In this document: one piece after another, positions 2,312 through 28,100 of the stretch | How positions within the stretch are numbered: position 1 is the stretch's first letter | How the letters are laid out: each line of letters begins with the position of its first letter | NCBI RefSeq assembly: GCF_032854445.1 | Contig: NC_088295.1 | Coordinates: forward strand, 79,574,028-79,638,027 | DNA from: Liolophura sinensis | Lineage: Eukaryota; Mollusca; Polyplacophora; Chitonida; Chitonidae | Direction of reading: 5' to 3' | DNA length: 64,000 nt | Made by a program: the position numbers and the translations under genes | The notes under the pieces: model-generated | What the model was told of the DNA's origin: nothing | Seen by the model: the letters and a program-made list of their open reading frames with translations, nothing else | Database searches by the model: none

Positions 2312-5300
2312 TCATCGCTCTACCAATGGCTTGGGCATTGCCTCCTCCACCACCTGCCGCATCATGCGGATTGTCTCCTTAGGGTCATCACTCATAACCA
2401 CAGCACTCCCGGACACAATTACGTTAGCACCGGCCTGTAAATACAGTCAGGGGGTTCCACATAACAGTCTCAAAAACAGGTAATAAGAAACAGAAGGTAG
2501 ACTTTGTCAAACTACTATCCTGTACTTGACCTCAAATTCTGTCCTTAACTATGTTACTCATCTGGCCTCATTCTGTTTTGAATGAGTGCGTCCTAGTGAT
2601 TGAAAGACATGTTCCGCTCTGCCATGACCACTCCCAAAACCTGAATGATCTATTTCTATACTAAAGGTACATGTACAAGATGTACTGTCAGACACCAGCT
2701 GATGTCAGCATAACTCATAATAAACATGTAGTGTTAGCTGATATCAGCATAACTCATGATGAACATGTAGTTCCAGCTGATGTCAGCATAACTCATGATA
2801 AACATGCAGTTTCAGCTGATGTCAGCCTAACTCATAATAACAATGTAGTTTCAGCTGATGTCAGCATAACTCATGATAAACATGTAGTGTTAGCTGAGGT
2901 CAGCAAAACTCATGATAAACATGTAGTGTCAGCTGACGTCAGCATAACTCATAATAACCATGTAGTGTTAGCTGATGTCAGCATACCTCATGATAAACAT
3001 GTAGTGTTAGCTGATATCAGCATAACTCATGATAAACATGTAGTTTCAGCTGATGTCAGCCTAACTCATAATAAACATGTAGTGTTAGCTGATGTCAGCC
3101 TAACTCATAATAACCATGTAGTGTCAGCTGACGTCAGCATAACTCATAATAAACATGTAGTGTTAGCTGACATCAGCATAACTCATGATAACCATGTAGT
3201 GTTAACTGATGTCAGCATAACTCATGATAAACATGTAGTGTTGGCTGATGTCAGCAAAACTCATGATAAACATGTTGTGTCAGCTGATGTCAGCCTAACT
3301 CATAATAAACATGTTGTGTCAGCTGACGTCAGCATAACTCATAATAAACATGTAGTGTTAGCTGACATCAGCATAACTCATGATAACCATGTAGTGTTAA
3401 CTGATGTCAGCATAACTCATGATAAACATGTAGTGTCAGCTGATGTCAGCATAACTCATGATAAACATGTAGTGTCAGCTGATGTCAGCACAACTCATGA
3501 TAAACATGTAGAGTTAGCTGATGTCAGCATAACTTATGATAACCATGTAGTGTTAACTGATGTCAGCATAACTCATGATAACCATGTAGTGTCAGCTGGG
3601 GTCAGCAAAACTCATGATAAACATGTAGTGTTAGCTGATGTCAGCATAACTCATGATAAACATGTAGTGTCAGATGATGTCAGCATAACTCATGATAACC
3701 ATGTAGTGTTAGCTGATGTCAGCATAACTCATGATAACCATGTAGTGTTAGCTGATGTCAGCATAACTCATGATAAACATGTAGTGTCAGCTGATGTCAG
3801 CATAACTCATGATAAACATGTAGTGTCAGCTGATGTCAGCATAACTCATGATAAACATGTAGTGTCAGCTGATGTCAGCAAAACTCATGATAAACATGTA
3901 GTGTTAGCTGATGTCAGCATAACTTATGATAACCATGTAGTGTTAACTGATGTCAGCATAACTCATGATAACCATGTAGTGTCAGCTGGGGTCAGCCAAA
4001 CTCATGATAAACATGTAGTGTTGGCTGATGTCAGCAAAACTCATGATAAACATGTAGTGCCAGCTGATGTAAGTAAACCTCACCTCAGCACACTGATGAA
4101 TAGTTTTGGGACCAACTCCTCCATCCACTTCTATGTCTAATGTTCGAAAGTTTTCTCGTAGATACCGAACCTACCGAAGAAAAGAAATAAAAGAGAAACA
4201 TTTTTAATATTTAAAGGCTTTATCCTGAAATTAGATCAATGCGAAGACACTAGACAGCAGTGTGACAGCGCTGTGATTTGTAAATTTAATGTTGTCTATG
4301 TCCCTGACAAAACTTTCATTATGAATAATACAAGAGAAAATGAACAAATTAATGCTTATTTTTTGTAATATTCCACTGTTAATGGGACTAAAAACAATGC
4401 ACACTGGGATCCTATTCTACTGCACCTTAATTTCCAGCAAACATTTATTTATTTATTTATTTGATTGGTGTTTTACGCCGTACTCAAGAACATTTCACTT
4501 ATACGACGGAGACCAGCATTATGGTGGGAGCAAACCGGGCAGAGCCCAGTGGAAACCCATGACCATCCACAGGTTGCTGGCAGACCAGACCTTCCCATGT
4601 ACGACCAGAGAGGAAGACAGCATGGGCTGGACTTGAACACACAGCGACCACATTGGTGAGAGGCTCCTGGGTCATTACGCTGCCCTAGCGTGCTAACCAA
4701 CTGAGCCACTCAAGCAAATATGAATACTACACTAAGATCAGTGGAGAATGTCAGTTACCTTTGGCATCATATCTTCCATGAATTTCTGACCCCCAAAGCC
4801 AGGCTCCACTGTCATGATGATTACCCAGTCTACTTCCTTCAGTAAGGGCAACAGACTCTCCACAGGGGTACCAGGCTTAATCCCCACCCCAGCCTACCGA
4901 AGACAAACAAACATTGATTTATTCAGTAATATTCGCATACACAGTCATTATTACCAGTTACAGTAAGTTGGTTGGCAATTTGTTTGCCATAAAAGTATAC
5001 ATCCGTTTGTTGGATGAAGTGAGAAAACCGTGAATCGGTTCAAATTACACATGGCTAAACGAATTAACAAATATTAAACGAATTTCTCTCTCGAAAAGTT
5101 ACTATTACAACACATTTAAGCAAACAAGACAGTTCTGAAAATGCAATAATGTTGATAAGTTGAGGTGACTCATACCTTTAAACATCAAATGTGGAGGTAT
5201 GATGATTTATGTGATTGGCATGGTATTAAACACTATACTGATTTTTTTCTCTCCTACAACTGGAGTTTTTTGACTGAGGAAACTGGGTTTCCCACAGCAT

Positions 5301-7152
5301 ATCAGTCCATGCAGTTACCAGTACCACACAGACTTCCTGACTTAAAGCCACAGCATGGGTTGTATTAAAGACTGCAATTTTATTTTTAAGGTGTTGATCA
5401 TCAAAACGTAAAAAATCAGATGTACCTTCAATTATGAAATGTAACACATGACAAGTATTAATACAGTATGCATGAAGTGGTGTTCTCCATGTGTGTTATA
5501 GATTACCGGTGGATCAGCCTATAACATACATTTAGTACTGAGGAAATTGTTTGCTTTTATCTTTTGTTCCTGCACTTGAATGGCAACCATCTAAATTATG
5601 GGTGGAGCAAACAAGACTGAGCCTTGTGGGGAAGCATTACTATTTTGCCGAGTACATAACAAGATAAACATATACACTATGTTAATCATACCCTCATTCC
5701 CGCTTCCTTGATCTTGCGAATGCATGTCATTGGGTCATCTGAGCCCTCAATATGGAAGGTGTAGAGATCTGCCCCTGCATCAGCCATCCCTTCAACCCAC
5801 TACAAACAAATACATGTAAGTCAAAGTCTTACACCTGACATACTAAGTAACACATATTTAAATAAGTAACTTCGCAAGAAAGCCAGTATGTAGGTTTCCT
5901 TGAAATTGCTTTTTAACATAAGCTACTGTCAAAGTGAAGTTCACAAAGTCAAGTGTAGTTAAACTAGATAGACTCTATGCGCTGTTTTAAATTTCTGACT
6001 TTTGTTACTATTAATTACAGTGTCTTGATACAATGCTTTAACCTACGTCATGCCGTTAACACTAGTACTGAAAACCTTTGATTCATCAAACTTTATTAAT
6101 ATTATGATCTGTTCACTGGGCACTGTAACCATATATTTTTGAGTAAAAATAAAATCAAGACAGAGTATAAACTGTCATTCAGTGAAAGCTACTTCATATC
6201 GTACAGTCTTCTCCTTTCCCTTTAATACATTACCTTTTGTCAGAACTGAAAGCTGGATACATTCAATAATTAATGATTCCAGGACGAATCTGCTGCTATT
6301 TTTAGATATCTTTTCTCTTGCTCTTTAGTACCGCTGTTTTTTTTTTTGTTTTTTTTTGTTTTTTTTCCTTTTTTTTTCTGCTTGTTATTCTGTTGCGGAA
6401 GTTTCAATTTTCTTTCCATGAATAAATTGGTGTGTGTTTTTCAGGAAACTGAGTGTTATAAGGCACAAGTAGTGAAAAATCCTGTTTCACCAAGCTTTCA
6501 CCTTGGGGTTGTTTTGGTTTTTGTTCAGATTTGGAAATCACATAAAGTAAATGGAAAAATAACTGTGGATTGTGCCTAACTAAAGCTAAATGATCTCCTC
6601 CTCATTTAACATTCTGACATTTACCCTGTAGATCTACTGACCGCATGAATGTCAGAAATATAAAATATGGAAGTAGTACATGTAACGTGGTTGAATTAAA
6701 CTGACCAGCTGGTGTCGTAATTTGACAGCAAAGGGAGACAATCGACGAATTCTTTTTAAGTTCTGGCATCTAATCACAAGCATCTTTTAACCCATTTTAA
6801 ACATAAGCTTATGCTCCAATCCAATAAGGCGGCATATAACAATTGGTGTTCTTTTTCCAGATACGCGATGGCAATGATACGCGCCTGAAAACAGTATAGA
6901 TGTCTTTACCTTTTCCGGGTTGTTTACCATCATGTGCATTTCAAAGTACACACCCGGTAATTTGGGTCGCAAACATTTCACGACAGGATGACCAAATGTT
7001 AAATTCGGAACAAAATGACCGTCCATGACATCAAGATGCAGGAAATCCGATCCAGAGTCCATCATTCGCTGACATTCTGAGGCCAAATTCGACAGATCAG
7101 CGTTGAGAATAGATGGACCAATTTTGCAGCACGTTCCAGTGGGGGCCGCCAT
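2312..7152 (-). CDS. RPE: ribulose-5-phosphate 3-epimerase, 5 exons
   Basis: Interconverts ribulose 5-phosphate and xylulose 5-phosphate in the cytosolic pentose phosphate pathway. Coding exons in order on the minus strand: 7152-6910, 5799-5692, 4893-4759, 4170-4084, 2434-2312. All introns are phase 0 with GT..AG ends. The product is 231 aa (human about 228), a TIM barrel. Visible motifs are [12 protein letters not shown] (His39, Asp41), MHMM (His73), [11 protein letters not shown] and EVDGG (Asp178); the His and Asp residues fit the family's metal-binding and acid-base positions. I chose Met at 7152 because its context fits the usual N-terminus; an in-frame ATG at 7182 would add ten residues. 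Intron 4 holds a 39-bp minisatellite that begins at the exon 4 donor, and intron 3 holds a SINE. Confidence 0.95.
2690..4083. repeat. 39-bp minisatellite in RPE intron 4, abutting the exon 4 donor
   Basis: About 35 head-to-tail copies of a 39-bp unit. Each carries the near-palindrome gctgatgtcagc followed by an actcatgataaacatgtag-like half. Because 39 is a multiple of three, the plus strand reads open for 489 codons (2671-4140) with a 13-residue period; I take this as a by-product of the unit length. The last unit merges with the RPE exon 4 splice donor at 4078-4083. A multi-unit block around 3514-3640 recurs about 390 bp later, near 3904-4030. Confidence 0.93.
4440..4716 (-). repeat. SINE family A, full-length, minus orientation
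   Basis: Starts on the plus strand with TTTA repeats (the tail reversed), then ttgattggtgttttacgccg, the body, and the tRNA-like head ending near 4716. It lies in RPE intron 3. Compared with the copy at 865-1111 it keeps more of the central body. Short open frames on both strands here are SINE-derived. Confidence 0.85.
6337..6380. repeat. T-rich homopolymer tract
   Basis: Runs of 8 to 11 T broken by single G or CC. On the minus strand this is an A-rich tract in RPE intron 1. No other structure seen. Confidence 0.85.
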
Positions 7153-8469
7153 ATTGAAACAAGCGCGAAACAAGCGCCCCATTAAAAATTTACCCTAGGT
7201 CCTTTATCCACTTTTCATCATTTGGAAGGAACTGACGAGTCTAATTTAGGGGCTCCATGCCACAACATATCTATTTCACATTGTCTGCTATAGAGTATAT
7301 CATTTCATTTGCATTTCATTTTGCATGCTGCACATGGTATAATCAAATCACTGATTTCCTTGCTCTCTATCCTTCCATTTGTTGTTACAAAGCCTTTTCT
7401 AATATAATTTTATTTACTCAAGTTTTATGGTGAAGTAGAAGAGAAGAGAGTAAAATAGACTGATGTTATGTATGTCTGTATAGGCCCATACGATTAATGT
7501 ACATGCATGTTATACTGAAAGTTGTTCTATTATATATCCAGCTTAATAAACATTTTGTTTTGCTTTCCAATTTGTATTATTTACCTGTATTATTATATGT
7601 GGAAATGACCATTGTTTATATAATTAAGTATTTTGTTAATTTTAGCCCACCCAAGTCATATGAATAAATATACTTAGAAATGCATATTGTGGTAAATTTT
7701 TTAAAAATAAATTTACTTTTAACTTCCAAATGGATTTAATTTCTACTGTCACTCTTATATGTCTGCGAGGATTTTAAAGTTGTGTCAGACTTAAGCTTAA
7801 TTTTTAATCTGGGAGTTATTGACGAGAAAATATTGTGTGGCCTGTTCTTGATATAATTCAGTACCCGGTACATGTTACTGAGTCTTATGCGCTTATCAGC
7901 AAGAGGTATTATAGCTGAAACAGGCTACCCAATGACATGTACATAAAAAACATTCTTTGTGGGGAATGAAACATTCAGTTTTGTTGTTCTTGAATCATTC
8001 AATTTTTGAAACTTAAGTATGTTTAAAATAATTATATTCCTCACTAAATGTTTCAGCTTTTAATGACTGTGGTGCAAATTTTACAGTCGTTTGTATCATT
8101 TTCGATACATCGCTTATTCAATTTACAAGGGGCGGCAACTGCGATTGTGACAAATCCTACCTAGGTGATTTTTCCACCAGGGTATCGAATTTTCCAGAGA
8201 TGTAGTCACAACGGTTTCGCATTATAAAAATGCCTTAAATAACAAATATGTGTTTACCCTACAAGAAAATGTGATGAATCATTCAATTTTTTTGTAATTA
8301 TTTTGCGATTTCTGGTGACAAAAGTAAATGCTGATGGCAATGATTTAATACGAAACTATAATAAATTTGACAGTACAGGAACCACGGAGACGAAAGCGCA
8401 AAGTGTGAAACGAGGTGCATTTATGTTCTTCAATGCACCATCCGAAATGAGACCGAGAACAGCATAAAA
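7153..8469. promoter_or_regulatory. shared 5' flank between RPE and IQCB1
   Basis: RPE (minus) and IQCB1 (plus) begin 1.3 kb apart, facing away from each other, so this interval must contain both promoters unless there are distant noncoding 5' exons. Most of it is AT-rich. A GC-box-like ggggcgg lies near 8130 on the IQCB1 side. No convincing TATA box or RFX X-box could be identified by eye. Confidence 0.4.
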
Positions 8470-11400
8470 ATGACCGATACACGGAGCCCTGATAAGCGGG
8501 ACAAGCGGATCGTGGCTTTAGCTGCAGGTGTAACTGAAGCTCAAGACCGCAAAATCCCACAGGTTTTACTGGGCCTTGAAGGTGAGTATGCATGAATGGA
8601 GTGCTGCCAATTCGTGCTTGTCTCAACTTGCTGACAACTGACATGCTGAACGCAGAGTGATTTCCTCTCGCGGCCCCTGGCACTGTGTGACAGTTTACGT
8701 CATGACATTAGTTCATAAGTCCTTGATTAAAATGGCTATTTCCTCAAACGCACTCGCATGTAGTAGTGCAACGTTGATGTCTATTTCAAACAGATATCAA
8801 AAATTGTTGAAAAAATAGACCTCAGCTGTTAATTTAATTGAACTATCGATGTAGCAGTCAGTTACGGTATTCTAAATAAGAAACTAAGCTGTTAAATAAT
8901 TAAAATTTACAACTCATATAAACAGCCAAACAGCTGAGTTTTGCAGCTTATAAAGTTTCATCTACTACAGGGCCCTGGAAGTATCATATTTGAAGGATAT
9001 GGAAACATCTAACTTGGCCCTACCATAATTGTTTCTCTACAAGAGTCAAATCTTTAGGAAACACAAGGCATAGGCTCAAATCCAGCCTTCGACATGAATT
9101 TGTAGGTTTCTGTGCTCTCATTTTTCATGGGTCCTCGGTGGCAGTAAATCAGTAGGCCTATAGGCCTACTGTATCCATCAGTATATTGTTCACAGATGTA
9201 TGTGTTTGTCATGTATTATGTTTGTCTCATATGTGGGAAAGTTCATCTGATGATCAGTAAGGGGCATTCCGGCTTCCTCCATTGTGTGAACGAAAAGTTC
9301 TTCAATTTTTGAGCAGTGAGATATAGGTTTGGTTTCAATTCCTTTAGAAGACAATGCTAATCTAAGGAGCAAGTTACTCCTCGTATCACATAGAGTGTTA
9401 GGGTTTATTACTGTACATGTATGAATGTGTATGTGTTTTACTTTGCAGAAATCCTTGTCTCTGTAGAAGGGACAAATGAGGCTGTGAAGATCAAGGAAGA
9501 TGTATGGAAGCTGGACCTGCTGCCTGTACTATTACTGGTGCTGAAGAAAGATTACAGTCTGACTCCTGGAGGATGGAGGACAGCGTCTCGACTTGCCAGT
9601 ACCCTGAGGTGAGATGATTTCAGTTGTCAGATCAGATCAATGCTGAGGAAACGGTAGAGGGCTACAAAGTGTGCCAATAGTGAACTTGTGGCACTGCACT
9701 GTGTACACATGCACCGTTGAGCCTGGCTGGTTCTGATACTGGTTTTCTGTAGAAGGGAAGTACAAAAAACAGATTTAACAATCTTTGTTAGAATAAAATA
9801 GTAGGGAATATTTTGTACGAATTTTGAAAAATGATATAAAAACTGTATTTTTAATATTATTGGTATATGATACTGTGTGAGTGTGTTATGTTTATTGTGG
9901 TTTCAGCCGTGTCTGCTGTGGTCTTCACCCACACACCTCAGAGGAGTACTACAACAGACAACTGCCTACAGCAATAGACAACATGTACATCATAGCTCGC
10001 AGAGTTCAGGCCAGGTTCAGCCAAATTCCACACAACATGGTGAGTCAAATTCACTAACACTACACGATTTTTCACCTGTAATTAATGTTCAAATCCCACA
10101 CAACATGGGTAGTCAGATTCAGTAACAATACACGATTTACCACCTGTAATTAATGTTCAAATCCAACACAACACAGCGAGTCAGATTCACCACCTGTAAT
10201 TAATGTTCAAATCCAACACAACATGGGTAGTCAGATTCACTGACAATACAAGATTCACCACCTGTAATTAATGTTCAAATCCAACACAACATGGGTAGTC
10301 AGATTCACTGACAATACACAATTTACCACCTGTAATTAATGTTCAAATTCAACACAACATGGGTAGTCAGATTCACTGACAATACAAGATTCACCACCTG
10401 TAATTAATGTTCAAATCCAACACAACATGGGTAGTCAGATTCACTGACAATACAAGATTCACCACCTGTAATTAATGTTCAAATCCAACACAACATGGGT
10501 AGTCAGATTCACTGACAATACGCGATTTACCACCTGTAATTAATGTTCAAATCCAACACAACATGGGTAGTCAGATTCACTAACAATACACGATTTTCCA
10601 AGAATTTACAGTTTACCACCTCTAATTAATGCTGCGTGCAAGTCCCTTCATTTTGGTGACTTTCCCTACAAGAACATTAGTACATTGTAACTTTTATATA
10701 CGTGTAGGTTCAAGTGTAGTTCAGCATCGTTTACATGGAGCTGGAGGATGTCCTATAAATAATAGTGATGTACCAGGCCCTACTACATTCTTAAATTGGG
10801 GGCACTAACATTGATTTGGGGCCATGCTATGGCTGATCAACATTTTGCCAAATCTAATGTTTGAGGAAACTTGGAATAAGTAAGAGTAGATGTCGTGTGG
10901 TGTACACATGGAGTGGAGTTCAGCCACAAGGACCAAAGCTCCTAAAAAATGTATGAGAATCAAAACAGTGAAGTGCCCTCAACTGCCGATTCCACCCACT
11001 GCCCTTCGGAGGCTAGATCAGGCCCTATGTACAGAAAACAGTAATTGACGACTGTGTGACTGAACAATGTGTAATCTGGAGCACGTGTCATGAAACACAC
11101 AGAGCATAATGTACAGTGTAACTACTGACAAAGACATTGTAATGGTAGTTTTAGTTATGTCAGCTTTGTCAGACAAACCTAGTGCAGGAATTCATTTCTG
11201 GACACAGTTTTAGGTAATTGTATATGTATATGTATATGTCTAAACGTGAAATTGTCTGACATTTCCCTGTTTCATTTGCCAGGCTATTGCTCATGGGAAA
11301 AGCGAGCTGTTATCAGATTTCCGCTCTGTCCTAGACTCAATGCTGCTTCTCTACACTGCCCACCATCACTTGCGAAACCATGGTAAGAGTTCTCTCCCTT

Positions 11401-14400
11401 TTATGCCTATAGTCATAACTGTGTTACATTGTTATGTTAAAGAACTGGAGTATTATTTATGTACATTATGCATTGATGATCATCACTATATTATCCCAGA
11501 CGAGCCACCCTTAGTATGGCCAAACAAAATTTGAAACTCCTGCATGGCTACAACCTACAACATGCTTGGGGCTATTGAGGTGACTTTCAGTCTCTGTTTC
11601 AAGCTGTTCTTTTCTAACTGCCTAATTGTGGAGAGTAATGATTTACGAAACGACACCAGGAACTTCTGAAAGGTTCTCACACTTTCAGAGGAAGTAATTT
11701 TTGATTTTGAAGCGATCATGCTCCTCGTCATAGCGTGGAGTGTCTGGGATAGTACACCCAAAAGCCAGCTAGCTGCAGTAATACTATGACATTGACCAAG
11801 ACATTCCATCATTCTGGTTTCCATGCAATAATCCACACATTCACAGTTTGACTAGCACATGTACAAATTTCAAATCTTGTATGTTTTATACTAACATGTA
11901 TGGCTAAAGAATTCTAGTTAATTGATTTACTGAATGACATGAACAGCTAAAATAATTCTGAAGAAATGCATTTTGATGATGTCAGCATGTGTAATTAAAT
12001 CAGCATAGGAGAAATGTGAAGAATGAGACATTCTGAATTTCCAACTGTTTCAGTCATCCAGTCACCCTGGTTACTTCAGCTGTTGATCAGTGATGATATA
12101 GAGACAGTGGTCATTGTTATGAATTTCCTGACGGGCTTAGTGAGGACCAACAGGTAATGAGCTTCTGACATGTACATGCCACAGACCACAAACCACAAAG
12201 GTGGACTCCTGTCTGTTCTCACACATTGGTCTGTGTGGATGTCTCTTTTTCAGAATCTTCCAGGCAATGAAATCTTTCTTATTCTTTGGTGCGCATTGGA
12301 ACCCATTCTGATTTAGATTCTGACCATATGTGAAAAGATCTGCTAGCAACCTGTGAATGATTGTGGGTTTCAGCTTAATGCTGGCCAGTAGTCTTGAGTA
12401 TGATGTAAGACACTAATCAGATAAATAAATAAATTCAGATTTGCAGTACATATATCTGTACGTGTACATCTAACATGCCTTCTTCATATTTTGTGCAGGA
12501 CTGACATGCTACGTCATTAAATGTATGCAAATAATATACATGTCTGCAGTCTGAGCTCATTGTGTGCAAATGTCGGTCAAAGAAAGTGTAGCGTCATCAC
12601 ATATGTGTTGTTACACAACAAAGGCAACATTGTTAATGTCACAACGTATGTTAGGTCTTGTACAACAAAAATTGAAAATGTAAAGAATATCTATTAGATG
12701 TACTACAGCAGGAAGCCTTAAATAGTAACATCGTAGTCAGACCACAGTTACAGCAGGACTACTTTTCCACCTTTGATGCATAATTTTCTTTGTTGTAGTG
12801 ATGTTCTGAGAGACCTCCCAGAGAAATTCCGGCAAAACATCATCGATGAGCTGATCTATAAATTATCTGTGAACAGAGACCCAACAATAGGAGGGTAAGA
12901 CAAACAAAACAATATAACATTGTGCTTTACAAACCAGCAAGTTGTAGGTCCATATGGCATCTCTTGTAAGGGTTCTCCCTCTTCAGAGACATGTACTCAA
13001 CTGCCAAGCTCAAGACTATTATTCATTTTCTGTCCGTCTACTTTGATTGCCCAACGGTTAGAGCATCTGCCTCAAAGTCCTGGGATCAGACCCTGGTCTT
13101 CAAGCATTGGTACTTCTTGCTGCCTCGCTTGTCACTGGGCCCTGACAGCATACGACAAGGAAACAGGACTGGTTGGTCCTTCAAGAGTATTAGTTTTATG
13201 CTACAACATTTAGATGGTTTTTAATCCTCAAGAAGGTAGACTGACATGTAAGTTTGTGTTTATATTTGATCCTCGTGCTCATTTTGCTATTAAAGCCGAC
13301 CATCGTTCTTGCGTAAGCTGATTGCCCCTGACTGATGAGGTTCCTGGCTCAAATCCACTGGCTAGATTTAGAAGTTAAGAGCTTTGCCAGGTACATCTAC
13401 CTGTGAGAGGGTGAGGGTTTAGCATGAGCAGTACTGCTTCTTCCACAGATATCACAAATATACCCAACTACTGCACTACTAGGTCTCGGTGAATTAAGCT
13501 TTCAACACCATTTACATACATAAAAAGTTTTGTTATATTTTCTGATTTCAGAGCTGCCATGAAATGTGTGCTGAGATTGTGTAACTTCTACAAACCTCTG
13601 GTTGAGTTTTTGTGTGTCAGATACAGGTAACTTGCCACTGATGCATTTGATATGTGAAGCCAGCTTTATGTCAGCCATGATTGATGAGGAGCTATTGTTT
13701 ATAATTGAACATACATACAGCAAATGAAGAGACCAACCTAGTATTTGTACAAACATGTATTTAAGAATTAATTTGGGGAATGAATTAACGACAAAAATAT
13801 CCACCACACAAGCCTTATTTAATGAACTGAGTTTGATGTGTTTTATAAACATAAGTGTAGCCTTGTGTAAAGGCTGTAGAAGTGCAGCAAGGAACACTTG
13901 CTCTAACTAGTTGAATAAATCATGTCATTTTCACAAAATTCTCTGTATTTGTGCATCATATGAATTTTGCCTGACACACCTGACACTAACTGCTATACAT
14001 GTATATGCTAATTGCTAGGGCACATGAGATAGAGGTTCAAACCTTAGACAGGGAATTTGTAAATTTCCCTGCTCTCTTGCTTGGGTGCAGTGATGACAAT
14101 AAGCAGGGATAATGAGGCTCCTGTTGCTATTTGCGCCCTCTAATGTTGGTTGAAAACCACTGGCCTTCCACCAATATGGCAGGCATATCTGGCTAAGGTT
14201 GGTGGGTCCCTTCACCCATATAACTGACAACCATTGTGTAAGCGAAAAATTCTTAAGTATTGCATTAAAGCAAGATCAAAGTAAATATAGTACATACATA
14301 TGCATCAGTTCTAACTCCTTTCAAGACGTTGGCTGTCTATTTGTTGGTGTACTATAGGGGGCTGAGACCTCTGCTCACCAAATGGACAGGAAAGGGATTT

Positions 14401-17400: not shown

Positions 17401-20400
17401 TCACAAATTGTCCCAGTCAGGTACTTCGCTAGGTTAGCGAACGCGAACACAGTACACAGGTTACACAGAACTGGAACAGTCAAGTCTTTGAATGACGTCA
17501 CACCCGCAGAGCACAACACAGGGTAAATCCAGGCATAGAGGTATCCACTTTAGAACAGTCACAGCTCCCGCAGAAACTCACAAACGAGCCGTTCAGAGAC
17601 GTAGAGTAATGTCACCTTGTGGCAGAACGAACGTCCTTTGCAAAACTGAAAACTTCAGTTTAGAGTCCGTGACGACCTTGTCGGTCAGGTGAGGTCAGCG
17701 TGTTAAACAAATTACACAGTCAACACTGTATAATCATAATAAAGATCCGAACACCAATAAACGTGACTTCCGCAGAAATTCACTTAAACCAGACATCAGT
17801 ACAACCGTGGTACACAAACGGTGCCGGCATAGAAATCTGTCCTCCCAAACGAAACTGGCATCACCAGCTCATATCAATATAATGGACTCGATACGAGAGC
17901 GTCGCACACTCTCCTGGCTCCCAGTGGATGCAGCAAAATTACCTCCTCTCTGCACGGAAAACACGGCTTATATACGTTCCAGGTGGATTCAACTATTCTT
18001 AAACACAGAATTAACAGCCAATGAAATAAACAAAGCATTGAACAAGGTGCTTTCGATCCGGTCCGCGCTGTACACATATAACAGGGTCCGCAGACTAACA
18101 GTACATGAAAACGTTAAATAGTCATACATAACAATCCACAGATGATGATGTGTTGCGACTCACATTTGTCCATTTCCACGGTTGTCATGATAGCCAGATA
18201 ACCATTTTCATTGTATATGTATACGATATAAATAGACATGATTTTGTGTTCAGGCTATAACTCTAACTGTTTTCTGCAGAGAGTTTTCAGTTTTGTTAGA
18301 CACATTTGTCCACTTGTGTGGTTTGTCATGGTAACCACATATGGTAAATGACATAAAGTTTCACTCTGTGACTCCCAAAGAGTATCCCAGGATTCATTGT
18401 GTTGATCTTGGTGTTTAGTGACTGAGCGCCGCGGGAAAGCATCAGGAGTAGTTAGGGGATTATACTGACAGTTCAAGAATGTAATGAACAAGCTCGCGCT
18501 TCACTGAGCAGTTAGTCTATGCTCCAACCACTAATAGTTCATGTTTTAATCATAATAATTTTAGTACATGCACTTCGCAACAGGTTGTTTGTTTTTTATC
18601 ATTATTTTGTGATAAATGGGAATTTGAGAGAAAAGTGTGACTACCCAGTACCCTTGTGCATGTGGAGTGTCGTGTCAAATAACCGTTTTTAAACTGCAGG
18701 GCTCTCCGTATACAAAGCTGTAGTAGAAGTTAGCACACCGCGAATCCATACCTGCTAACTAGGCCTACGATCAGACAAGATGAAGATGTTCAATGGTAAT
18801 CAAAGCAACATCTACACACGTGCAATTGCATGGCAGGAGTTAAGCATTTCTTGTTTATGCTGGTGTCATTTTGTCATTTGGTGTCAACTTCCTCCCATAT
18901 TTTGTAAACCTGAAGTTACATAATATTCAATCGAGTCCCCTCAAATGAAATTTTAGTCATACAGATTGGTTATACCTACATGTAGACACATGTACACACC
19001 ACTTACAATCATAGGACTCGAAATTTCCACGTATGTTTTCTGTGTTTAATGGAAGTTCCCCATTTAAAAACGTAGGAAAATAAACTCTTGTGGAATAGGA
19101 GGACAGTTCCAACTGTATGTGTAGACTGACATACTAAATTGGAAGCACATGAACATGGGAAGCTGTTGATTTTTCTCATTGAAATTCGTTTTTAGCTAAA
19201 TGCATCTGTACACATATCTGTTGCATAATGAGGGCTCTCGGCAGACAACTGTTCACCAGATAATGGTGTGAGGTGAATTCAACCCAGGCCTAACCCAAAT
19301 AATCGTTTTTTCTGCAGTGTATATTGTGCATGTACATTCCTTGTTTAGCGTGGTCATGCTTTCAAACAGTGTTTTGAATTTAAAGGTTTGTAATAGACAT
19401 CGCCTGTCTTAATACTTTCTTCTATTTCATTCATGAGTATATTTATGAGATGTACATGTAGGCCTAATACTCAGGAGACCTGCACACCTCACTGTCAGTG
19501 ACTTGACTCCATGTGGCAAGGATTAGCAACCAGAGCTACTAAGTTCCATGCAGGGTAATGAAATGGGCAGGGAGCTGATCACTGTCTTCTGTCATCTTGT
19601 CGTCAACTCAGATCGTGCGAAAGTAAACTACAATAACTCTTCAGCAAAGCTTCGGGTCATTTATCATATCTATCATCAACACCCATGAAGATTCCCCTCA
19701 ACAGATATACTCACCATAATGCTGCTGGTATTCATCAAACATTCCAAACAAATGCATTTGTTAGGGCGTATGTTGTGTTAACCTGAACTCTTGTTTATGT
19801 ATTGTAGGGATGTGTCCAGCAGAAAGATAGCTTTGCGAATGTGTGCTCTTTGATGTTGTTTTAAAAAAAAACAAATGTTTATAATGATATCAAAATCTTG
19901 TTTACAAATTAACTACAGTGTATCACATTAAACATCAGCTTTCAAACTGTTGTAAGTCAGTAATGCTTTGAGTTACTTGAAGTACATGTAACTGTTAGAT
20001 TGAGTTCTTTATTTGAACATGTAAATGGTAAATAACCTAAAATTTCGCCATGATTAAATTGCATCTTTTTCCTGATTACTGAGGAGAGTGTTTTCAGTTT
20101 CTTTCCAAGATAGGATGATGTCCTGGTAGGAAAATATGGGTTTCATTACCAAAAGGAATATTTTGTGACATTTATTTGCCTTTAAAAATGTGATTCTATT
20201 TTACCGTATGTTGCTTCCTGCTGTATTTCAGCCCAAACCACGAACCCGTGAAGAGCAGGAGAGTTTACACCGGACAGCCCAGGAATTGATGGCTCGTTAC
20301 TACATAGGCTGTAAACTAACACGAGGGAAGCATCAGCAGAGAGAGGCCCTGTTGGCCAGGCTGGAGACCGATTCAGAACTTCTCATGTGTAAGTACTATG

Positions 20401-20845
20401 TCAACAACCACTTGTTCAATATCAGTCAAGTCTTGCTGAAGATTTAACCATCGGTAATCAAGTAGAATGCATGAAGTACTGGTCAACTGGTGTTAGTAAA
20501 ATGTGACTCCACAGCATGGTGTTCCAGTGAGGCAGCACTATGCATATGTTGGCATTGGGTCCAACCTATTACATTTATGGCATGAGATGATAATTTCTAC
20601 GTGTATGTAAAACCATCTGTTATTTCATGATTCTCTCATACCTCGTGTTGACAGATGCCCCTCCCCTGAAGGACCTGACAGACAAGGATGTGGACATGTT
20701 TTCCAGCAGATCTGTTCCCGTGGCTGCGAGGGCGCAGCAGGCACACAAGGAGGAGCTACGACTGCTCCGTCAGCCCTGGTGGAGGAAGTTAGGAGATGAG
20801 TACCAGGACCAGCTGTATGAGGAAGAACAAGACCTGTTGTTCTGA
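8470..20845 (+). CDS. IQCB1: IQ calmodulin-binding motif-containing protein 1 (nephrocystin-5), 14 coding exons
   Basis: In vertebrates IQCB1/NPHP5 works at the centrosome and transition zone in cilium assembly and binds calmodulin and CEP290. Exons: 8470-8581, 9449-9608, 9907-10039, 11283-11382, 12054-12153, 12799-12894, 13552-13626, 14358-14466, 14875-14984, 15582-15724, 16160-16308, 16658-16789, 20232-20388, 20655-20845. All junctions are GT..AG and in frame; the product is 588 aa (human 598). The N-terminal half is helical without a motif I can name. IQ motifs lie near residues 300-320 and 393-413, with a third IQ-like segment (IQRTVRRWLER) spanning the exon 11/12 junction. A charged coiled-coil stretch sits near 337-370. 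The C-terminus has the family's SRSVPVAARAQQAH...PWWRKLG block. The start is the first ATG of an exon whose protein aligns with the human N-terminus. Confidence 0.94.
10018..10625. repeat. 69-bp minisatellite at the IQCB1 exon 3 donor
   Basis: About 8 copies of a 69-bp unit with caacatgggtagtcagattc and ccacctgtaattaatgttca. The array begins at the exon 3/intron 3 junction (10039/10040), and each unit contains a copy of the last ~20 nt of the exon plus the start of the intron. The true junction reads caacatg|gtgagtcaaattc; copies read caacatgggtagtcagattc, which weakens the donor. One copy near 10170 is shorter and altered. Confidence 0.9.
12340..12436 (+). repeat. SINE family A 3' fragment (decayed)
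   Basis: Contains agcaacctgtgaatgattgt, the body, tcttgagtatgatgtaagac and a short AAAT tail, all diverged from the family A consensus. Lies in IQCB1 intron 5. Confidence 0.65.
13040..13205 (+). repeat. SINE family B, 5' portion with tRNA-like head
   Basis: Head gattgcccaacggttagagc (A-box-like) and tgggatcagaccctggt (B-box-like), then ttgctgcctcgcttgtcact and gacaaggaaacaggactggt. The same order of blocks appears in reverse at 27895-28150, and the later blocks again at 35195-35410. Lies in IQCB1 intron 6. Family B is my label. Confidence 0.7.
13985..14280 (+). repeat. SINE-like repeat, family C
   Basis: A tRNA-like head (ttgctagggcacatgagata then gaggttcaaacc) is followed by a body different from family A, but the 3' end (gtgtaagcgaaaaattctta then gcattaaagc) resembles the family A tail. 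A related head and tail occur at 57990-58240. Lies in IQCB1 intron 7. Confidence 0.55.
15750..15925. repeat. SINE family A, rearranged fragments
   Basis: A reversed tail piece (tttatttgattgattg...ggtgttttcttatggtgtac) is joined to a forward-oriented body and 3' part (tcctcccaccacaatgctgg through gaatatggcataaaacacca). The two oppositely oriented pieces lie back to back in IQCB1 intron 10. Confidence 0.6.
16850..17152. repeat. family D repeat (about 165-180 bp units), left part
   Basis: About 1.6 units of a repeat with 'ttcgtgttcgg.ctata.ctcc', 'actgttttctgc', 'gatgatgatgt' and 'actcacatttgtccattt'. Successive 'ccctgtatatacta'/'ccctatatatacta' blocks lie about 177 bp apart. It is interrupted at 17156 by the putative LTR and resumes at 18138. 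The same family occurs at 22700-23240. Confidence 0.75.
17157..18133. mobile_element. putative solo LTR, 977 bp, flanked by ATCC
   Basis: The segment starts TGTTA and ends TAACA, the short inverted ends usual for LTRs, and ATCC occurs directly outside each end (17153-17156 and 18134-18137), as expected of a 4-bp target duplication. It interrupts a family D unit: the flanking halves rejoin to give the arrangement seen in the uninterrupted copy near 23030. No integrase, reverse transcriptase or primer-binding site is present, so if this is an LTR it is solo. A TATATAAG sequence on the minus strand near 17966-17973 could be its TATA box. A non-LTR insertion is possible. Confidence 0.55.
18138..18345. 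repeat. family D repeat, right part after the LTR-like insertion
   Basis: Continues with acagatgatgatgtgttgcg, gactcacatttgtccatttc, then 'ttgtgttcaggctataactc' and 'aactgttttctgcagagagt'. It is the other half of the unit interrupted at 17156. Confidence 0.7.
19700..19800. repeat. isolated 3' end of the family D element
   Basis: Contains tactcaccataatgctgctg, ggtattcatc, caaacaaatgcatttgttag and ggcgtatgttgtgttaacct. The same blocks in the same order end the family D copy at 23110-23215, so this is a detached terminal fragment of the same element. Confidence 0.65.
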
Positions 20846-21620
20846 TGTATGAGGGGTGTAGGACAAAGACTTACAAATGTTGTACCAAAAACCTCTGGAG
20901 CAGGACCTGTCGTTCTGATGTATGAGGGATGTAGGACAAAGTCTTACGAATGTTGCACCAAAAACCTCTCGAGCAGGACCTGTCGTTCTGATGTATGAGG
21001 GGTGTAGAACAAAGACTTACAAATGTTGTACCAAAAACCTCTTGAGCAGGACCTGTCGTTCTGATGTATGAGGGGTGTAGAACAAAGACTTACAAATGTT
21101 GTACCAAAAACCTCTGGAGCAGGACCCGCTGTTCTGATGTATGAGGGGCGTAAAACAGTAAGGTCACGAATGTTGTACCCCAAATCTGAAGAGCAGTACC
21201 GGTTGTTCTGGTGTCTGAGGGGTGTAAAACAAAGAGCTCACGAATGTTGTGGTACCAGCAACCTGAGGAGCAGGAGCTGTTGTTCTCATGTAAGACGGGC
21301 GTAAAACAGTCAGGTCACGAATGTTGTACCCTAAACCTGAAGAGCAGTACCGGTTGTTCAGGTGTCTGAGGGGTGTAAAACAAAGAGCTCATGAATGTTG
21401 TGGTACCAGAAACCTGAGGAGTATGACCTGTTGTTCTGATGTATGAGGGGTGTAAAACAAAGACATACGGATGCTGTGGTACCAAAATCCTGAGGAGCAG
21501 GAGCTGTTGTTCTGACATCTGAGGGGCATAAAACAAAGACTTATGAATGTTGTGGTACCAGAGTCCTGAAGAACAGGACCTGCTGTTTTGACGTATGAGG
21601 GGTGTAGAACAAAGACCTTG
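20820..21620. repeat. 73-bp minisatellite seeded at the IQCB1 stop codon
   Basis: About 10 copies with a 73-bp period. The gtatgaggg block recurs at 20847, 20920, 20992, 21066 and 21139 and then in more diverged form to about 21620. Each unit begins with a copy of the final ~25 nt of the IQCB1 reading frame including the stop (gacctgttgttctga) followed by the first ~45 nt of 3' UTR. The array therefore forms the proximal 3' UTR. Confidence 0.92.
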
Positions 21621-22149
21621 TGTTATGGGATTGGTTCCAGAAAGATGAAGAGTATGTGGGGCATGAAACAGATTCCTAAGTTATAAATGTATAGGTGTAA
21701 GGGCTTTTTAAGGCTAGACAGACTGATCTTGTATAGAAGCAGGGGAGAGAACTTCTAAATACAACTTATTTGTTTGAAAAGAAAAGTTCAATACATGTCC
21801 AGTGGTATGTCCACAGCTAACTGTGTAAAAAAAAAAAAAATTTCCATCTGATTTTCACCAAGATTAATGTGACCATAGTTAAAACCAAAACACCAGAGAA
21901 AGACCATGCCGTCCAGTTTTACTTGTAACTTGTGGATAATTATTTTATTGTACACATGCTATATAAATGAATATAAATATATGTACATGTATGTATATTT
22001 CATGTTACATTTTTTATACCTGTATATAAATGTATACTATTACCTGAAGATGTATAGGCTTTGAGTCATACACAGTCTTGTAACTTTAACACCATTTCAG
22101 CATCTTATGTTGGTGTCCTAACATTGGACTATGAACTCACAGAGAAGGC
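21620..22149. other. convergent 3' UTR interval of IQCB1 and ELAC1
   Basis: No exon seen. IQCB1 transcription (plus) and ELAC1 transcription (minus) run toward each other here. There is an A run near 21829-21841 and several ATATAAA-type sequences at 21960-22030 that could serve IQCB1; I found no canonical AATAAA for it. Confidence 0.45.
21944..21949 (-). terminator. candidate ELAC1 poly(A) signal (AATAAA)
   Basis: TTTATT on the plus strand reads AATAAA on the minus strand, about 200 nt beyond the ELAC1 stop codon. If used, the ELAC1 3' UTR ends inside the probable IQCB1 3' UTR. Confidence 0.4.
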
Positions 22150-25100
22150 TCATGCTTTTCTAGGAGGAATAGGAATGGTCAGGAAGTCCTCTGCACATAT
22201 GACTTTACCCTTCCCCAACACAGCCTCTGCCTGCTCCAGTAACACTGACACTGACTTGTCGTCTTTCTGTCAACAGATCATAATGACACTGATAATGCTG
22301 TGATGCTAAACCATGTCCAAAACATACACCATCTGTTTATTTTTCTTTCACAACATTTTTTTTATCACACTTTTGGAACTTGACTTTTAATGTATTGTAC
22401 TTATAAGTATTGAAAAAAACATTAAGTTCTGCATTCTGCTTTTGAGTATTATTACAAATATAACAGGAAAAGACATCAATGGTTACAAGCTGTGCCTGTA
22501 TCAAAAGTTTTCATGCATAAAGTAAGCATGATACATGAAGTCCCAAACCCAAGTTTCCTGGAAAGTCGTGAAAGTAGGTGTGTGAGTGGAATAATGCAAA
22601 TGGACTGACGCACTAATACTCAAATGGATCAGCTGATGTACTCAAATCAGGAAATCTGGGAAACATATATTTGACAGTTGTTTAACATTATCCTGAAGAA
22701 TTCTTACACGCCCCCGCCATTAGGCAGAGCGTATTATGCTATAACGATTTTGTCCGTCCGTATTTGTGTCTAGGCTATATCTTCAATTGCTTTCCACGGA
22801 GAGTTTAACTTTTTTAGTGTTCGCGCTACAACTCCAACTGTTTTCTGCACAGAGTTTTCATTTTTGGTGGATACATACATACACAGAAGATGATGTGTCG
22901 CATTTGTTCATTTCTGTGGCTGTCATGGTAACCAAATAACCATTTACCTTATATATACTATTAAAGATAGATTTTATGTGCGGTCTATAACTCCAACTGT
23001 TTTCCGTGTAGAGTTTTCAGTTTTGGTGGATACATACATACAAAAATGATGATGTGTCGTGACTCACATTTGTCCATTTCCACAGTTGCCATTGTTACCA
23101 GATGGCCATTTCCCTATGTATACTCACCACAATGCTGCTGGTATTCTTTTATACATTTCAAACAAATGCAGTTGTTGGGGCGTATGTTGTGTTTACCTGA
23201 ACACTTGTTTGCTTATGTTATGGTGGTCACTTTTTATTCGTGGAGTGCCTGGGGTAAACCACTGACCTTTTGGTGAGTTACTTACAAACTTTGCCTCAAG
23301 CTACATGTATGTACTTGCCACCTGTTATAAAGTTGATACAAAATGTACAAATAACACGCAGCATGAGTATTCACATGTCTCACTGACGATATCTCGGTCT
23401 CGTATATACAGTGATTGATACTTCACAAAAAGTGCTTTCTTCGTGGCTTGTCTTGTGTAACCTACTTTGGTAGCTTCCTTGTGTTTATTATCATATCAAC
23501 TCCATGGCACCAACTTTTGTAAGATTAAAGTATGTATAATGAAAAAGAACCATGATGCATTTCTTTAATCTTGGCCGACACCAATACATGTACCTCTGTC
23601 ACTGCCCCCAGAGGTTTATATCTCTGACTGTAGTGAGTCAGCACCAGCTTTCCCACATTCAAAGACTTCCCCAATACTGCTGCCATTTCTGTAATTAACA
23701 AATGTAAAATAAAGCAAAGATCACAAAACTGAAGTGTAGAGCTATGGTGCAAAAGATATATCATGATGAAATATGTCAGACTTCAATTTCAACATACATG
23801 TATACATGACATGTAAATTACTAAAAAGGTGATGCTACATTTTTCCCTCGCTATGTTGCTCCTCAATATACCAATATGATATCGCTTATAGCACAGTCAG
23901 TGGCCTGATGGGAAAATCCCTATAATCCCTATTAAATACATAATGCCATAAGTGCCCTCACGACTGAACAACATCTATCAAAACCATTAGTTTTCCCCTG
24001 CTTTTATTTTGACAATAAGTTAAGAAATCATATGCAATGACTCCATGATTTAATTCATAGTTTGTATTCGATGGTAGAACAAAATCTACTAGTATTAACA
24101 CATTACTTTTCTGTTTGTTCCTCCAGCGAATGCAAACTAGATCATGTAGTCACTGCTCTTGGTTTCTTTTACAACCCACTGACACCAACATAGGCCCAAA
24201 CAAAAATGGGCATGTCTTGAAGAAAAGTGAAGATGTCTGGCTGGAGTTCAGGCATGGCACCAAGAAAATGACTTACATCTTAGTTGTTCCTAAATGTGTC
24301 TTCATGTAACTCTTTTAATTAATTCAGTGTGTATCTACCTATTTAAAGTTAGCTGTGCGAGTGAGACACTGAAGATGGACTGATGCACTCATACTTACAT
24401 TTGTAAATGGTACTCAATTCAGGACAGTTTTTCACAAGTCCACCAGTAATTCCAACATCATTAACGTCATTAGATGTGTGTACATGTACTGTGCCTTCTT
24501 GTGGTAGGGCTAGTCCATGCTGCCAAAGTGCTGCCGTTAATGAAGTATCATGCCGAAGACACCAGACTTAAAGTCTTTAGTATGACCCTACCTGGGTTAG
24601 TATCACCAAACAGATATAGATCTCTGCACTGTTATTTTCCATCTAGTTCAAATGTATCATAATTTTGTCTGTCTGGAGAGAAGTAAAACCTTTTGACCAG
24701 TATTACCACTCACCACCCCAAAGGTTACCAATGTTATGACTTAACTTCCAGCAATAACAGCTCAAAAAAATGGTGGTCATGCTAGTTGGATTTTGGAAGT
24801 AGACAGGCTGCATGTCACTATGGTTGTATGACAGGAACCTACACAACAATTTGTAGGGGATAATTGTTGTTGGGGATATATTTTGGTCGTTGAAGTTTAC
24901 CAATTACTGCATAAATATTGAGGAAAATCAATGCGCTTGTTAAACCTTCAAGTCCAATAAGGGGAGTTAATGCAGTGTTGTTTACACATGTTGTAAAATG
25001 GATCTGTGTACCTGGAGTAGAGTGTCCATTCTGTAAGGCCTGTGCTAAAAGTTCATTCTCTAGAGTGGCTTCATGGACGAGCACGTCAGCATTGAGCCCC

Positions 25101-28100
25101 ACAGACATGAGCTGTGAGGAGTCAGCTGTGTCTCCCATGATAATGACCTTTCTCCCAGGCCTTGGAGGGCCCAACACGTCCTCTGGTCTTACCTGTTGAC
25201 AGGTGAAATCTAAGGTATTCTCAACACTGATTTTTCCAGATGAAACGAAAAGACAAATTCAAGGACTTGCACACCAATGATACATCTTTCAAAAACTTTT
25301 TGAGGCATTCCTTTAATAAGCTCATATATAATATGTTTACATTCATAGATAAGGCTATGAAAGTATAGACTACTTCCTCTTCCATTATAAAGTTTTGTAC
25401 AAGACGTATTTACCACTGCACTTTGCACAGAAACCTGGAAGTACAATTATTATCTCATAAGAAGTTACAAGTACAGTGAACTATAACACAAAACTGGAAT
25501 GGTGCCAAGAATACAAAGTAAACATTACCTCTTCACCTGTTGGGGACATAATTGTCTCCCCTGATTTTATCTTCCCATACAGAGGCCCTGGTGGAACACC
25601 CATTGACCTTAACATAGCATCGTTGAGCCTGTGAAGACAAATGCTAAGGCATTTATACTCTTTATTCCCATCTGGTGTATTCATTTTCCTACTTTTTCAT
25701 CAATATAAATATCCGGCATTTCTGTAATATAACAGCATAACAGAATCACACAGTACTCACTTTCCTTGGGTTGGTTTTTCTTCAACACAAAATCCAAAAG
25801 ATGGGATTCGATGTTTCAGCCAGACTGCTTTCACAACAAAACGGTCATCTTCGATCCTACAACAGTAAAACAACATGCACAATGATTCCAATATGATAAA
25901 TGATAAGACACTATAAAGTCATATACTGGTAACAAAAACTTAGTCAAGAATCTCAGTAATAATAGTAACTAAACTACATGTACGTTGCATGTATTTGTTG
26001 TTCAGGTCTTAGGTATTCTAATATGTATATCTATACAGCCTGCTGTAAAAAACAGTAGGGGTGTTTTGCTTCATAGGGTACTGATGCGATGACGAAACAT
26101 TCCCATAGTGTTATTGTGCTTTACATGTACATATAGTACTTTTATTGAGCCACTTGATACCAAATTTAACAAATTTGTTATCCAGCCCATAAGAGTTCCT
26201 GAACAATGTGGCTTTAATTTTTATTTGACATGGATGCTCAGGGTATGGTGTAAGTAACACCTGTACTTTGTTCGAGTGAGCTAATATAAATAGCTAATTT
26301 GTATGTAAGTCTTATTGGCACAAAATATTGTTGCTCCTCCTGATTAAAGCTCACAGGTTCCAAACACCTTTCTCATCCGGAGAGATCTGCTGACCTGGGT
26401 GTTCGTTGGGGTGGAGACTGCCTTCAGCATCATGGTTCACAGTCCAAGTCTACAAAAGACAACTCTGCTAGTACACAGGTATGCAGTATGTGACCCACAG
26501 TGTATGTGCGTGATACTAGTCGAGTGTAGTCTCCTCCACTAAACTTATTTGTCAGCTCTCCATCATAATGGTTGTTTACAGAATTTTTTGTTTTGATTTT
26601 TTTTTTTTTCGTCTGTAACGTACATAGGCCAATACATATTTTGACTCTCCAGAGATCTCCCTTTGTAATGTGAGGAAATGATATTGCCACATGGCCAAAC
26701 TGAAAACGTCCTTATTACGTGCTGAGGTAAAACTGTAGCTGGAATTTTCAAGCCATTTAAAAGACAAATGGAAAGACAAAATGAAATGTTGTTAAAATGA
26801 AAGAATTATAACAGTGCAAAACATGCACCCTGTATTAGTAACTGTGGCCTACCTAACAATGCCAAGTGATGGCATGACAATTGGGACACTGTCATTCCTC
26901 CACCACAGGTGGGTATTAAGACTACAAGCACTTACATTCCACTCAGCAGGCAGCTGTTCCTCCACAACCTGCAGCTCATGTACCACGTAATTATAGGTGA
27001 GTTCAGACCGTGACAACTGCAGGCTACAGCGAATGAATCGACGTAAACCATGAGGTCCATAGAGCTCTAACTGACCGGTTTTCTGGTTGTTCTGACTTAC
27101 AGTACACATCAATCCTGGCAAACCAAACATCTACAAATACAGGAAAAGAAGTTAATCTGAAAAAAACAAACATCTACAAATACAATTGAACAAATCAATC
27201 CTGGCAAACCAAACATCTATAAATACAAGAGTACACATCAAGACTGCCAAACCAAACATCCACAAATACAGAAAAACACATAAATCCTGGAAAACCGAAC
27301 ATCTACAAATACTCTTACATGTAACACATGACATACCAAACCATTTACACATCAACTCCAGTAAACCAATACAAAAAACAGTACACAACAACTGTTGCAA
27401 TCTACACATCCACAAGTTTTACACAACAGTAGGTCTGCACATCAGCCCCTGGAAACCAGAGTTGTACAAACACAAAAGTATATATCAGTCTTGGATGATT
27501 TGGCATATTCTACACAAATAAAGCAGAACATATCCATTGTGTCCTCTCCATTAAGCCAAACATCTGCAAATTTAGAAAGGACATGTATTAAAAGGTACAA
27601 AACTTGGTTAGTAGTTAAACAAAACAAGTAATTATTGATATGGTGGGGCCTCTGTGGCCTTGTGGTTAGTGTGGTAGCGCAGCACAACGACCCATGACCC
27701 AAGAGCATATCCCACCAAATCTGATCGGTGTCAGTTCAAGCACATGCTGTGGAAAGGTCTGCCAGAAACGGATAGTCATGGGTTTTTCCCAGGCTTCCTC
27801 CCACTATACTGCTGGCTGCCCCCATACAGGAATGAATGAATGAATGCTTGGGGTTTTATGTTGTGCTTAACAATTTTTCAGTCATATGACGATGAAGAGT
27901 TATTAGGTGTGTGTACATATAATGTGTCTTCTTGTGGCAGGGTGAGGCCACCAAAATGCTGCCACCACTGAAACATTATGCCGAAGACACCAGACAACCC
28001 ACCCAGTCAAATTACACTGACACCATGACAACCTGTTTCCCTGCTCTAAACCATCTGTGCTGAGTGCCAAGCTAGGCAGCAACAAGAACCGTTTTTAAAA

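Follow-up and report, generated by a model that had tools for sequence, protein, structure and literature searches.

The analysed window is a stretch of 64,000 nucleotides from the chiton Liolophura sinensis (contig NC_088295.1, positions 79,574,028 to 79,638,027). The assembly was published as Liolophura japonica, according to the available passages of the genome paper (PMC11068029), and a later correction renames the species L. sinensis (PMC12441733). Gene models of RPE, IQCB1 and ELAC1 were built from reading frames and splice sites, and are homology-based rather than transcript-based. RPE exon 4 (4084-4170, minus strand; acceptor end approximate) has the donor GCTGAG/GTGAGG, and protein comparison showed that RPE exons 4-5 are the continuation of human RPE (3ovp). 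ELAC1 exon 3 (26935-27130, minus strand) starts with MFGLPGL and is homologous to human ELAC1, of which it is the continuation in the protein comparison (3zwf, HGDH/MFGLPGL). The key boundaries of ELAC1 and RPE are supported by this homology. The predicted IQCB1 model has an open frame across exons 1-3, and an IQ motif in its later part. The last ~17 bases of predicted exon 3 (9907-10039, plus strand), together with its donor ACATG/GTGAGT, form the first unit of an array; the last predicted exon (20655-20845, plus strand), which should encode the C-terminus, ends with ...EQDLLF-stop.

Other features were also observed in the window. Positions 29500-64000 hold a putative chimaerin gene, so named in the initial annotation, with arrays at 43, 48, 50 and 55 kb; no chimaerin exons were found by a crude regular-expression motif scan of this 29.5-64 kb gene. 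Three stretches (870-1190, 4440-4720 and 27640-27830) are tRNA-like and SINE-like, and are putative SINEs. The first two share common GGTGTTTTACGCCGTACTCAAGAA-type ends and lie in opposite orientation; the third is similar in the head only.

All four minisatellites of the initial annotation were detected by TRF. The 39-bp minisatellite (2697-4070, minus strand) has 35 copies and abuts the RPE exon 4 donor, and its copies contain no exon sequence. The 68-bp minisatellite (10022-10595, plus strand; overlapping TRF rows) begins at the IQCB1 exon 3 donor. The unit of the 73-bp minisatellite (20831-21616, plus strand) contains the end of the IQCB1 coding sequence, its stop codon and the first part of the 3' UTR; that of the 43-bp minisatellite (27104-27312, minus strand) contains the ELAC1 exon 3 acceptor and ~27 exon bases. 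The 10 longer arrays of the window reach a coverage of 9%.

For the 47 boundaries of RPE, IQCB1 and ELAC1, 40 bp across each boundary was aligned to the flanking 1.5 kb, and the reversed flank was used as the control. Several of these boundaries were set a few bases off, and the ends of ELAC1 exon 4 are uncertain (its donor as placed lacks GT); the three positive edges are unaffected by either. Strong edge copies were found at three of the 47 boundaries, which are the IQCB1 exon 3 donor (score 28, reversed control 10), the IQCB1 stop codon (32, control 12) and the ELAC1 exon 3 acceptor (29, control 15). Scores were 9-15 at the remaining 44 boundaries and 8-15 in the 47 controls. At the RPE exon 4 donor the score was just 13, and alignment of a wider segment took the array up to the intronic GTGAG, with zero exon bases. 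The proposal that each unit carries the neighbouring exon edge therefore stands for the two IQCB1 arrays and the ELAC1 array; for RPE the exon-copy claim fails, because the array ends in the intronic part of the donor.

The four units were searched against the genome (609,464,459 bases in 632 contigs; very common words skipped), and each of them matched its own locus alone, in agreement with the earlier view that the units of different arrays are unrelated. Tandem-repeat cores are present in some bivalve mobile elements, and the chiton repeats might be copies of a mobile or dispersed repeat which inserted near exons and introduced the matching sequence. However, such an origin is highly improbable in view of the single-locus matches, obtained by a search that skips very common words; moreover, the exon part of the ELAC1 unit codes for residues common to human ELAC1. 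A dispersed, tandem-repeat-bearing mobile element, for which matches at many loci were sought, was rejected on finding one locus for each of the four units.

The genome was sampled through exons that match four Pfam families (Cpn60_TCP1, kinesin, UCH and myosin head); the scope is one genome, one assembled haplotype and four conserved-gene families. From the 320 family matches, 212 were used (34 TCP1, 90 kinesin, 30 UCH and 58 myosin), all of which are conserved exons. Matches with internal stops or longer than ~420 bp were excluded by rule, and at least four clean matches (C3:10775981, C8:10568445, C8:10571106 and C5:5567751) were omitted inadvertently, before sequence inspection. The 157 stretches of the sample extend 700 bp beyond the exons in both directions and cover 288,923 bases in 84 gene clusters. 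Among 424 possible edges, 363 were called by open frame and splice-site score rather than transcripts. After inspection the acceptor of L150 (uncertain) and the acceptor of L009 at 1799 (duplicated exon) were dropped, which left 361 edges, and the donor of L002 was shifted to the first copy.

TRF arrays with a period of at least 15 number 104 in the sample; they occur in 68 of its 157 stretches and make up about 12% of the non-exon bases near the 212 sampled exons. In the Liolophura genome paper, the 'other' repeats including simple repeats amount to 0.08% and the unclassified repeats to 14%, and its available passages hold no description of the minisatellite load found here (PMC11068029). The chiton comparative genome paper also makes no mention of tandem repeat, minisatellite or satellite.

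Alignment revealed nearby edge copies at 12 of the 363 called edges (3.3%). Arrays of edge copies, read by eye, are present at nine of the 361 retained edges, and the TRF criterion gave the same nine. Six are donors, namely those of CCT5 (L028), CCT3 (L148), a kinesin (L002) and myosins (L064, L063 and L009); the three acceptors belong to ubiquitin proteases (L046 and L106, the latter with diverged copies) and a myosin (L071). CCT3 and CCT5 were named by comparison with solved structures. The tenth alignment-positive edge, the myosin acceptor of L087, has a single copy 660 bp away and was missed by the TRF criterion; the last two are one duplicated exon and one uncertain edge. The myosin exon of L087 (G000:C4:1246472-1248018) is closely flanked by a donor-side array of 21 bp x 32 and an acceptor-side array of 162 bp x 3.5. 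The myosin stretch L009 (G000:C1:26641495-26648048) has a second similar exon start (1166 matching 1799), which looks like a duplicated, perhaps alternative, exon. If about 2.5% of edges is extrapolated to all genes, there would be thousands of exon-edge arrays genome-wide.

An assembly or gene-model artefact might be suspected where the gene models of the window rest on homology; nevertheless, this is barely credible. The assembly is based on HiFi reads averaging 8.3 kb, longer than these arrays, as given in the available passages of the genome paper (PMC11068029), and the exons of ELAC1, RPE, CCT3 and CCT5 are consistent with protein homology.

Control positions (pseudo-edges) were placed 100-400 bp into the same introns as the real edges. 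A position was counted as spanned when the exon-facing end of an array (the first 1.5 units) covered it with a margin of at least 8 bp to either side. Nine of the 361 real edges were spanned, compared with 11.1 expected from the matched controls, and eleven other settings of the matched test gave 6-9 observed versus 6.2-10.7 expected. The exact 95% range of nine is 4.1-17.1, which corresponds to a ratio of 0.37-1.54, or of up to 1.9 against the 8.9 expected with the stricter array filter. By alignment, nearby copies were found for 8% of positions that lie 100 bp inside the intron and for 13-15% of those 300-500 bp inside (reversed control 0-3 per offset), versus the 3.3% of edges. The edges behave as other intron points, and lie in repeat DNA less often than the deeper intron. 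The rate of three in 47 in the window is above the sample average, with ~1.5 expected at the control rate of the sample (3.1% of positions); the excess is not significant (Poisson P of 0.18 for three or more).

The initial annotation had regarded exon edges as favoured start points of tandem amplification, with a comparison of real and control positions as the check. This comparison, carried out on the genome sample, showed no excess of array-spanned edges over matched intronic positions, and the idea of preferred sites was rejected. The distribution of array ends is more favourable to a preference of exon edges, donors above all, which might act for example via R-loops or transcription-linked breaks. 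After correction, array ends were 1.3-1.7 times as dense in the 60 bp next to an edge as at 100-400 bp (one-sided P 0.05-0.22), and the corrected ratios for donors and acceptors together were 1.1-1.9 (P 0.047-0.47). With periods up to 250, 21 array ends were found near edges versus 12.6 (P 0.054). The donors alone had 11 array ends versus 4.4 (ratio 2.5, P 0.03, as one of several tests); whereas the acceptors alone had five versus 7.6 (ratio 0.66). The first, uncorrected test had given a 1.1-2.7 fold density near edges, with P from 0.39 to 0.001 depending on filter and distance; its weak points were the truncation of loci at 700 bp, arrays that had been split and two poorly called edges. The signal became weaker after split arrays were merged, the range was limited and the edges were corrected. 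In view of the mild surplus of near-edge array ends, a weak preference, mostly at donors, may exist. However, as the explanation of the arrays an edge preference is unlikely, given the matched pseudo-edges, the acceptors and the lower occurrence of edges in repeat DNA. These results suggest that random seeding in a repeat-rich genome suffices as an explanation.

The decoy splice sites were counted at ten sample edges and the two splice edges of the window, which together have 113 copies covering the site. GT or AG was kept in 95 of the 113 copies, and 56 equal or exceed the true site in score by a generic scoring table; these counts lean to intact copies, because each copy had to align across the site. 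The rows of decoy sites beside real ones, expected in the initial annotation, are indeed present over these 12 edges. Individual edges vary: AG is kept in four of five scored copies at the ELAC1 exon 3 acceptor, none of the eight scored copies has GT at the donor position of IQCB1 exon 3, and the splice dinucleotide is intact in just two of seven copies in L106. The dinucleotide positions were kept in 208 of 226 cases, versus 3264 of 3519 elsewhere in the segment. There is no sign of decoy removal, because the dinucleotides are kept as often as the other positions, and purging of decoys was rejected on these counts.

At 11 of the 12 edges, splicing at the first decoy would cause a frameshift or run into a stop, and CCT3 (L148, G000:C8:53403543-53406862) is the exception. 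Its 66-bp array, read in frame past the donor, stays open for six units of 22 codons; the stop is located in the seventh, and a decoy donor lies at the end of each unit. Such a structure would suit arrays that are functional, selected for instance as regulators of splicing or as a source of added protein repeats via decoy use. A general function of this kind is nonetheless very improbable, since the extension to the first decoy is disrupted at all the other edges and the splice dinucleotides are conserved no more than the rest of the segment. In L148 (385 to 384), L028 (395 to 392) and L063 (223 to 220), the profile positions indicate that it is the exon-proximal site which leads on to the next exon.

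Similar structures have been described as 'mirages' in amphioxus, which are tandem repeats across exon-intron boundaries in the Adh3 and globin genes (PMC3087553), and also in Adh, troponin C and PGBD5 (PMC3902484). According to the available passages of these papers, regular splicing persists and intron gain from mirages was proposed (PMC3087553, PMC3902484). As in the chiton, the amphioxus mirages are minisatellite-like duplications spanning the exon-intron boundary at donors and acceptors, with many copies that carry AG/GT and with gene-specific units (PMC3087553). Arrays that span a splice boundary in this way were found at the IQCB1 exon 3 donor, the ELAC1 exon 3 acceptor and the nine sample edges. 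The RPE array does not span its boundary, and the array at the IQCB1 stop codon spans a coding-UTR edge and no splice edge. The latter is a difference from the amphioxus cases as described in the accessible text, in that one chiton array lies over a stop codon rather than a splice site. Moreover, the mirages were reported gene by gene in lancelets; whereas the chiton data come from a sample of a mollusc genome, with a positional control and decoy counts.

Other systems are partly comparable. A model of intron gain by tandem genomic duplication was proposed by Rogers (cited in PMC3087553). It resembles the chiton arrays in the tandem duplication of sequence with splice signals; however, the chiton copies sit inside existing introns or the 3' UTR. 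The potato RdRp gene is reportedly a case of intron gain by this type of duplication. The variable internal tandem repeats of human segmental duplications are also expanded minisatellites that alter gene structure, some of them at exon-intron boundaries; as far as the available text describes, they belong to primate-specific paralogues and half are coding, whereas the chiton arrays lie beside exons of old conserved genes (PMC2812944). In a mollusc, intron 3 of the abalone TSSK1-like gene contains a polymorphic 27-bp minisatellite of variable copy number, which is intronic as in the chiton; no exon edge in its unit is reported in the available passages (PMC6905558). Neither minisatellite nor mirage is mentioned in a paper that deals with direct repeats close to splice sites. 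A search of the open-access literature, mostly by title, yielded no description of exon-edge arrays for chitons or other molluscs. As far as these searches show, the mollusc case, the density estimate, the matched control and the decoy counts are new.

The chiton arrays are probably mirages, that is, minisatellites whose founding unit straddled an exon boundary by chance. In the sample, short tandem duplications arise and expand across introns and UTRs at a high rate, with no measurable regard to edges. Slippage, template switching and unequal exchange are candidates for the first duplication of a unit. Where a founding unit runs across an edge, gene function would be maintained by the copy that remains attached to the exon body, and the extra copies would land in the intron or UTR, where they might expand freely. 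Splicing would then use the copy nearest to the exon body, probably via exon definition. The intact decoys, which are not depleted in the sample, would be tolerated rather than purged because this copy is used.

These data suggest that a structure of the lancelet type may be widespread in a mollusc. The splice sites lined up beside real exons of old conserved genes are nearly identical and differ mainly in position, so that they amount to competition experiments set up by nature. If transcripts always use the copy adjacent to the exon body, this would speak directly for exon definition rather than local site strength. With perhaps thousands of exon-edge arrays, the use of decoys may also feed new isoforms, for which we see a rather small chance. 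If so, the choice of a later CCT3 donor would add a variable number of near-identical 22-residue protein repeats, and minisatellites would continually supply new coding sequence and shifted splice sites.
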